Source: Salinarchaeum sp. Harcht-Bsk1
Lineage (GTDB): Archaea > Halobacteriota > Halobacteria > Halobacteriales > Salinarchaeaceae
Assembly: GCF_000403645.1 (NCBI RefSeq)
Contig: NC_021313.1
Location: forward strand, 2,251,014-2,315,013
DNA: 64,000 nucleotides
Reading direction: 5' to 3'
The translations under genes were made by a program, and so were the position numbers. Below, in pieces: positions 15,321 through 47,676 of this stretch. Positions within the stretch are counted from its first letter, which is position 1. Every line of letters starts with the position of its first letter. Under the pieces are notes generated by a model that saw only the letters and a program-made list of their open reading frames with translations, made no database searches and was not told the DNA's origin.

Positions 15321-15500
15321 TGGGTCTGGAAGGGGCCGACCGCTCGCGGATTGTAACGACGCAAGCACCGCAGGGAGGGAGCGAAGCGACCGAGTGAGGA
15401 GCGTCGTTCGAAAGAGCGGAGCTCTTTCGTGATCACGAGAGATCTTCGATCTCTCGGACGACAGCGAGTTAGAATCCGCGAGCGGGAGAGGGCTTCCAAG
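15321..15500 (+). repeat. dispersed structured repeat, copy R1
   Basis: Starts with TGGGTCTGGAAGGGGCCGAC and ends with GAGGGCTTCC. The interior has GCAAGCACCGCAGG and two perfect hairpins, 15409-15429 and 15436-15456, separated by TGATCA and closed by an outer GTCGT/ACGAC pairing. It is the same family as R2 (16559-16800), R3 (29609-29940) and R4 (30038-30156). Compared with R3, both hairpins keep perfect pairing while their stem bases differ. Confidence 0.75.
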
Positions 15501-16558: not shown

Positions 16559-16800
16559 TCTCCGAAAGCCCCCGAGCGCTCGGTGACCCGGGGCTCGCTG
16601 CGCTCCTCGGCCTTCGGCCTCCGGTGCTTGTTCGTTCGCCTCGCTCCGCTCGGCTCACCTTCGCCCGGGGACCGCCGACCGCACGGCCCCTTTCGAAGTC
16701 CCGCCCCGCAACAGCACCTCAATCCTCCCCAACCTCCTGCGCTGCTCACGTCGCTTCGCTCGTTGCGCTGCTCGTCCCTCGCGCGGCGGCGCGGCTTCGC
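16559..16800 (-). repeat. dispersed structured repeat, copy R2 (with long arm)
   Basis: Read on the minus strand it has the family order: long arm (from about 16800 to 16695), GACTTCGAAAGGGGCCG at 16684-16700, GAACAAGCACCGGAGGCCGA, then GAGCGCTCGGGGGCTTTCGG near 16563-16582. It lacks the tandem hairpin insert of R1 and R3 but shares with R3 the long arm containing GCGAGGGACGAGCAGC-like and GAGGATTGAGG-like motifs. It ends about 50 bases from the stop of the frameshifted gene at 16850. Confidence 0.65.
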
Positions 16801-29608: not shown

Positions 29609-29940
29609 GGCTCCGAAAGCCCCCGAGCGCTCGAACGTCCTCGCTCGCTGTCGTCCGAGAGGGCGAAGCCCTCTCGTGATCACGAAAGACGCTTTGCGTC
29701 TTTCGAACGACGCTCCTCGCCCTTCGGCCTGCGGTGCTTGCGTCGCGACGACGCCTCGACCGTACGGCCCCTTTCGAAGCCCACCCAAACTGCCTCATTC
29801 CTCCCCAGCCTTCTGCACCGGAAGACGGTCCTGCTCGCTACGCTGCGCGGGCTGCGTCTTCCGAGCCATCGTTCGCTTCGCTCACGATGACGCTCCTCAC
29901 GTCGCACTGCTCGCTGTGCTGCTCGGCCCTCGCGCGGATT
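29609..29940 (-). repeat. dispersed structured repeat, copy R3 (with long arm)
   Basis: Core 29609-29786, read on the minus strand: GCTTCGAAAGGGGCCG, GCAAGCACCGCAGG, then GAGGAGCGTCGTTCG, hairpins 29683-29705 and 29656-29676 separated by TGATCA, GGACGACAGCGAG, and finally GGGGGCTTTCGGAG. The long arm 29787-29940 shares GGGGAGGAATGAGG-like and GAGGGCCGAGCAGC-like motifs with R2. It is the fullest copy in the window. Confidence 0.75.
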
Positions 29941-30037
29941 GCTCGCTCCGGCCGTTCGCCCGTACGAGGGCTCACGGCCTCCACGAGCGCGCGCCGATGT
30001 GGACTACCGGGGATTTAGTGATTCTGTAGGGAATCAA

Positions 30038-30156
30038 TCGGGTGGGATTGGAAGGGGCCGACCGGTCGTCGCCGTAGGCGACGCAAGGACCGCAGGGAGC
30101 GACAGCGACCGAGGACCGCAGCGAGCGTACGGCGACGAGCGGGAGGGGGCTTCCAG
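30038..30156 (+). repeat. dispersed structured repeat, copy R4 (short)
   Basis: Begins TCGGGTGGGATTGGAAGGGG and ends GGGAGGGGGCTTCCAGG, with GCAAGGACCGCAGG and GCGACCGAGGACCGCAGCGA between. It shares the ends and core with R1 but lacks the tandem hairpins, carrying instead the small hairpin GTCGCCGTAGGCGAC. Confidence 0.7.
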
Positions 30157-46970: not shown

Positions 46971-47405
46971 ATGCTACACGAGGAGCGGACGTCGGTCGAC
47001 GCCGAGACGCCCGCCGGACTCGCCGAAGAGTACTGCACGGAACTGGGTGCGATCGTCGAGGCCCACGGCGTGGACGACGTCGCTGCCGACACCGGGATCG
47101 ACGAGGCGACGCTTCGCGCGCTCGTCGACGGCGACGCCGAGCGTGCGGCAGCCGCACTCGACCTCGAGGACGCGGCCGCGATCCAGGCGCTCGACTCCGC
47201 CCTCGACGCGGACGCGATCTACGCGGAAGCGTGCGACCACCTCCTGCTCGGGATGTCGATGGCCGTCCTCGACGTGGACACGATCGCCGCTGAGTACGAG
47301 GGCGAACGCTCCGGGAAGGGGATCCAGCAGCGCATCGAACGCCGCGCACCGATGACGCTCGCGGAGTACGCACGCATCGAGCACTTCGTGGCGAACCGAC
47401 GCTGA
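46971..47405 (+). CDS. small helical protein (DUF5791-like)
   Basis: A 144-residue acidic, Ala/Asp-rich helical protein from the ATG at 46971. It contains GVDDVAADTGIDEATLRALV, an HTH-like helix pair, then EACDHLLLGMSMAVLDVDTI and APMTLAEYARIEHFVANRR at the end. I recall it as haloarchaeal DUF5791. The final codons and stop are part of the tandem repeat that continues downstream. It follows the filament-like locus on the same strand after 37 bases but has its own start context. Confidence 0.75.
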   Translation: MLHEERTSVDAETPAGLAEEYCTELGAIVEAHGVDDVAADTGIDEATLRALVDGDAERAAAALDLEDAAAIQALDSALDADAIYAEACDHLLLGMSMAVLDVDTIAAEYEGERSGKGIQQRIERRAPMTLAEYARIEHFVANRR

Positions 47406-47530
47406 CCGCGGCGGCGGGAAGCGCGAACCGACGCTGACTGCGGCGGCGGGAAGCGCGAACCGACGCTGACCACGGCGGCTGGAAGCGCGAACCGACGCTG
47501 ACCGCGGAAGCGGGGAGCACGAGACGACGT
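47394..47530 (+). repeat. tandem repeat of 31-32 bases starting at the DUF5791 gene end
   Basis: GAACCGACGCTGACCGCGGC begins units at 47394, 47426, 47458 (here one C shorter) and 47489, followed by a decaying unit. The first unit contains the gene's last codons and TGA, so later units copy the stop codon. The array then degrades into GC-rich sequence. Confidence 0.7.
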
Positions 47531-47676
47531 AGACCGCGGAGCCGACGAGCGAAAGCCGACGATGATCCCGAACGTGGGCTGCACGAGTCGACGCTACCGG
47601 CCAAGCGAGGGCTTGGATCCTGGACTCGAATGCATCGACCGCCGTCGTTTTGCCTCGCCGCGCCATTCGATCGCGC
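47531..47676. other. spacer between the tandem repeat and the epimerase gene
   Basis: About 145 bases with no gene seen. A CGTTTTGC stretch at 47646-47653 is a possible TATA box for the gene at 47677. Confidence 0.35.

Follow-up and report, generated by a model that had tools for sequence, protein, structure and literature searches.

The pair of tandem hairpins that recurs in the window (the whole 64,000-nucleotide stretch of Salinarchaeum sp. Harcht-Bsk1 DNA analyzed here) is almost certainly mobile DNA, and the two repeat copies in which it stands, R1 and R3, are composites, with the inner double hairpin nested in a longer outer repeat. We propose that the two hairpins together probably form a very small, non-autonomous haloarchaeal mobile element, moved as folded single-stranded DNA and likeliest by an HUH (Y1) enzyme acting in trans. 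What is new here is a class-wide element of 54-68 bp with defined halves, the known kinds being the small mobile repeats (SMRs) of Haloquadratum and the bacterial REPINs. Because the ends and the target are exact, the half types are two in number and nearly every genus carries the unit (some of these genera being genetically tractable), the question of its movement is testable.

A first-pass annotation of the window had described R1 (15321-15500) and R3 (29609-29786, opposite strand) as copies of one dispersed repeat with shared ends, a core and two hairpins. Direct reading of both stretches confirmed its coordinates and hairpin stems, as well as its observation that the stem bases differ between R1 and R3 with pairing retained; the sequence it quoted for R3 needs correction, as R3 carries GAAAGGGG and not GGAAGGGG. 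A search of the organism's own genome (3,255,260 bp, one contig) with R1 returned 71 matching stretches, and at more than 20 places positions 1-83 of the query were followed directly by positions 142-180, with the middle missing. The ends and core therefore do not form a single repeat with the double hairpin, which is an insert. In R1 and R3 this inner unit measures 60-62 nt and occupies an internal loop of the outer repeat, and by itself it was found at about 7-8 places in the genome. Its copies in the window are as follows:

15403-15462, + strand: R1 copy of the mobile inner double hairpin, type C/C (80.6 bits); insertion point between carrier G15403 and C15462, empty site GAGGAGCG^CAGCGAG
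15403-15408 and 15457-15462, + strand: outer arms of R1, GTCGTT and GACGAC, respectively
15409-15429, + strand: R1 hairpin 1, 9-bp stem, GGA loop
15430-15435, + strand: central TGATCA of R1
15436-15456, + strand: R1 hairpin 2, 9-bp stem, TTC loop
29650-29711, - strand: R3 copy of the mobile inner double hairpin, type C/C (82.2 bits)
29683-29705, - strand: R3 hairpin 1, 10-bp stem
29656-29676, - strand: R3 hairpin 2, 9-bp stem

The case for mobility comes from empty sites. The flanks of each copy were joined, with one G and one C kept, and compared with all fetched DNA. Gap-free empty counterparts were recovered for 122 of 187 distinct insertion contexts (17 of them at 90% identity or more), and in 111 of the 122 the junction reads GC exactly at the position of the unit. 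Insertion therefore takes place between a G and a C, with neither duplication nor deletion, which in turn argues that the inner unit is a mobile DNA element. In one carrier family (GGTCGGAACGGAGCGG...), two copies have the unit at separate GC points, and the point occupied in one is empty in the other. The unit stands at many unrelated places, often within other repeats, including the outer repeat of the window and IS605-type ends; in Haloquadratum it occupies the ends of IS605 elements and palindromes resembling PATEs, empty sites being seen alongside, and outside Haloquadratum it also lies inside tnpA genes. Besides being precise, insertion of the inner unit is target-selective. Among 56 dereplicated targets, those of C/C elements read GNNG^CNNC, position +3 being C in 39 of 50 (background 31%), and in those of C/G elements positions +3 and +4 on the side of the C-type half are C and G; the target preference of the unit depends on half type. 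Preferred insertion at hairpin tips was also considered and is not convincing (8 of 77 against 49 of 686 control GC sites, for stems of at least 5), and there was no clear excess in hairpin loops or feet. One copy in Halovenus salina (L076:2501-2558) overlaps the 3' end of tnpB in an IS200/IS605 element and may alter the C-terminus of TnpB or its guide RNA.

A covariance model of the inner unit, built from 24 copies, matched 217 of 244 Halobacteria genomes and 69 of 75 genera. Several of these genomes have at least 22 matches, a count in which the palindrome may score on both strands. A pattern scan of a collection of 84,980 species found the unit almost exclusively in Halobacteria among the matches listed; the few non-haloarchaeal ones listed, in Burkholderia and a Zixiibacteriota MAG, are isolated and look like chance. 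Seven matches fall on viral contigs, and the phage collection returned no match. In an orthologous comparison with a congener (G002), no shared synteny was seen at R1, and no mention of the core motif was found in the literature.

Across 161 unique elements the unit is 54-68 bp long, mostly 56-64 bp (about 56 bp in Haloquadratum), and consists of two near-inverted halves with inverted arms GTSGTT/AACSAC and a conserved centre TSATSA. Each half follows the layout GT-S-GTTCGA, hairpin, TCGT-S'-A, in which S and S' are complementary: among 230 halves, (S,S') is C,G in 156 and G,C in 73. These combine into 41 C/C and 73 C/G elements and no G/G element, of which about 12 would be expected under random pairing; when elements were located with the model instead of by pattern, a set that overlaps the first in part gave 39, 44 and 0, respectively. 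As the outer arms of C/G elements are mismatched at S, the conserved complementarity lies within each half and not between the arms. The outer GTCGT/ACGAC pairing that the first-pass annotation saw as closing the unit is thus not general: the commoner C/G type is mismatched at its third base, and the outer stem is not predicted. The S/S' complementarity could reflect base pairing or just two inherited block types. The halves are identical in none of the 161 elements and share the same stem-base triplet in 21 (75 expected), so that two hairpins appear to be favored over one long one. At two loci (L068:1435-1550 and L074:1435-1550) a 53-nt insert, itself a double hairpin of another kind that reads CTGAG-hairpin-CGAGGT-hairpin-TCCGA, interrupts the central TGATCA, i.e., double-hairpin families are nested. 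Another double-hairpin insert, GTGACGA-hairpin-TCGGTCGCACA...GAGGACG, occurs at four loci (L335, L343, L357, L358) and stands near the same IS605-end target in one Haloquadratum genome (G245).

The hairpin sequences change freely while their pairing stays almost perfect. The DNA-fold z-scores of the double hairpin (-4.6 to -6.5) are far from chance, and its covariation is 0.247, compared with 0.113 ± 0.013 in shuffled controls (24 elements). The covariation first seen between two copies also withstood a larger alignment, pairing with changing stems being kept across the 161 unique elements. Such strong covariation, together with the location of the unit within an internal loop of an RNA-like repeat, would suit RNA-level selection for structure, in an RNA of its own or in part of an outer RNA. 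That selection would favor G.U over A.C and one loop strand, and neither is seen. The stem positions of the 161 elements comprise 2860 Watson-Crick, 12 G.T, 16 A.C and 13 other combinations (2901 in total), G.T being as rare as A.C also when the strand is fixed by the C/G asymmetry (6 and 8, respectively), and the loops show no strand bias (GAA 57, TTC 44). With the unit also present in many unrelated contexts with empty sites, the RNA reading of the double hairpin is very unlikely. Since nearly every stem pair is Watson-Crick and G.T is not in excess, the compensatory changes reflect hairpin DNA rather than selected RNA. The first-pass annotation had allowed for an RNA element, for a MITE-like unit or copying as hairpin DNA, and for a recombination or protein-binding site. 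For the double hairpin, the MITE-like, hairpin-DNA reading is supported by the exact empty sites, the absence of a G.U excess and the unbiased loops; the RNA reading is not supported there, but is plausible for the outer repeat with the shared ends and core.

Double-hairpin elements of mitochondrial DNA are likewise ultra-short and spread like the unit; they are organellar and unrelated to it in sequence. The first-pass annotation knew of no name for the element; related SMRs have, however, been named in one species, Haloquadratum walsbyi, where their mobilization was called enigmatic (Dyall-Smith et al., 2011, PMC3119063). Among these, SMR-A (HqIRS42, HqIRS43, HqIRS55) are geneless repeats of about 110 bp with inverted ends, no target duplication and up to tens of copies, which insert in the near-terminal palindromes of IS605-type transposons and PATEs (PMC3119063). 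The unit is likewise short, has no gene, has inverted ends, makes no target duplication and reaches up to tens of copies, and its Haloquadratum copies sit in IS605 ends or PATE-like palindromes, although elsewhere it enters other repeats too; in Haloquadratum, other double-hairpin inserts occur at points near it. It differs in its length (54-68 bp versus about 110 bp), its class-wide rather than single-species range, its defined halves and its G^C target. We have not filed it as SMR-A because it has half the SMR-A length, a separation that rests on the published description rather than on sequence.

In REPINs and REP doublets (PMC3116915, PMC2817692), as in the unit, an inverted pair of tag plus hairpin is the replicative unit and the stems show compensatory changes. 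The REPIN head is GT(A/G)G, compared with GT(C/G)G in the unit, GTCG being dominant; the unit further differs in its archaeal host, a spacer that is merely TSATSA and its G^C target, and no RAYT gene flanked by the units was found in the fetched loci. The CGTC-tagged palindromic repeats (PMC3733652) are also mostly head-to-head dimers, often heterodimers, with no dedicated transposase, but they are bacterial, have 8-9 bp stems starting with AT pairs and a CCA tail, and are of other sequence. PATEs, the deletion derivatives of IS605-type elements (PMC3119063), share with the unit their palindromes, their haloarchaeal hosts and the lack of target duplication, but their ends are not inverted and their target oligonucleotide lies on one side, where the unit has inverted ends and a two-sided target preference. 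Membership in the PATEs was rejected on the inverted arms, and a MITE of a known insertion sequence with target duplication was rejected as well, no duplication accompanying the GC junctions. The unit works like an SMR, and its architecture resembles that of bacterial REPINs and CGTC repeats.

In the mechanism that we propose, the unit is made of two non-identical inverted half-units, in each of which a perfect hairpin stands between a GTSG tag and a complementary TS'A triplet, and would travel as folded single-stranded DNA, with cutting and joining performed by an enzyme supplied in trans. A folded single-stranded intermediate is the assumption towards which we lean. The likeliest enzyme would be an IS200/IS605-like or RAYT-like HUH (Y1) transposase; the tag would pair with the TS'A triplet, and we put forward a Y1 enzyme as the mover only tentatively. 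IS200/IS605 and RAYT systems work on this layout, with a tag on the 5' side of the hairpin and a complementary triplet on its 3' side, and make no target duplication. Since the copied strand would be a hairpin, the stems would be kept by templated repair or copying. In R1 and R3 the unit would have entered an older structured repeat of 112 nt, at one of its internal loops. Among high-copy genomes, 17 of 20 have Y1_Tnp, compared with 7 of 20 zero-copy ones, although Y1 content may track general mobile-element load only. In the fetched loci there was neither an autonomous copy (a gene between the halves at gene-sized spacing) nor a unit-flanked transposase, the only split centre seen there being that with the 53-nt insert, in two copies. 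A further idea, which we regard as rather unlikely, is that the unit is the archaeal equivalent of REPINs, carried by nearly all haloarchaea: a guide in each half (GTS) would pair with the cleavage triplet (S'A) of that half and set its side of the target. Insertion specificity would then be defined by a code of two letters, C or G in each half and never G/G.

Y1 enzymes classically have their target on one side, and the palindromic, two-sided preference of the unit is not classic for them. The symmetric target GNNG^CNNC, together with blunt insertion without duplication, the three high-copy genomes with no Y1_Tnp match and the lack of a transposase gene between the halves, would suit a mover other than Y1, either a recombinase acting on folded DNA or template switching at palindromes in the replication fork. 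Template switching would not yield ends and a G^C junction as constant as those seen, no candidate recombinase was identified, and the tag-hairpin-triplet layout resembles the ends of IS200/IS605 and REP elements, so that we consider a non-Y1 agent a real possibility that is nevertheless more doubtful than probable.

Two readings would do without self-directed movement. The double hairpin might be copied only with its carriers, its stems being kept symmetric by quasi-palindrome correction during replication, which agrees with the many copies in repeated carriers, with some composites that are alike throughout and with the near-absence of stem mismatches; given that one carrier can hold the unit at different G^C points and that unrelated carriers and genes hold it too, many of these sites having an empty homologue, this seems the least probable of the explanations considered. 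Selection for host function as a protein-binding or regulatory site would explain the conserved centre TSATSA and arms, but is highly improbable for a unit that is missing from some genomes within genera otherwise carrying it and that inserts in transposase genes and mobile-element ends, with no consistent neighbor gene noticed. The reading of the double hairpin as mobile DNA is strongly supported.

The outer repeat, the carrier of the unit in R1 and R3, is about 112 nt long and carries the shared ends and core; most of its copies have no insert. The window contains four:

15328-15496, + strand: carrier copy of the outer structured repeat, with the inner unit inserted (73.3 bits)
16565-16694, - strand: weaker copy of the outer repeat (36.3 bits, E 1.1e-5)
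29616-29775, - strand: carrier copy of the outer structured repeat, with the inner unit inserted (53.2 bits)
30050-30153, + strand: empty copy of the outer structured repeat, lacking the insert and paired in inverted orientation with 29616-29775 (92.9 bits)

Its structure has 30 pairs, with 96.1% of cells paired and 23 pairs changed on both sides, and its covariation is 0.560 compared with 0.164 ± 0.012. The stems contain 29 G.U and 7 A.C, an excess that the nested inner unit lacks, and the two therefore illustrate that covarying stems alone do not prove RNA. The model of the outer repeat (R2) matched 88 of 117 genomes and 37 of 46 haloarchaeal genera, and an Rfam search that included it found no family at gathering score. 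On the basis of its pairing pattern, the outer repeat may be an unrecorded structured RNA, and we regard it as a candidate; its G.T excess could instead stem from strand-biased deamination of single-stranded DNA.

Outer repeats often form divergent inverted pairs about 180-270 nt apart (29616-30153 in the window, and L009, L010, L011, L012, L013 and L014), the centre of which is partly shared (CCACCGGGGTTTCGTGA, GAAGGCTGGGGAGGA), and the mobile or functional outer unit may be an inverted pair of about 420 bp. Other hairpin inserts, unrelated in sequence to the inner unit, are found in or at the edge of the outer repeat (L042:1480-1560; L028). Elsewhere in the window, positions 47391-47565 hold a tandem array of a 32-bp unit in about 4.7 copies with 88% match.
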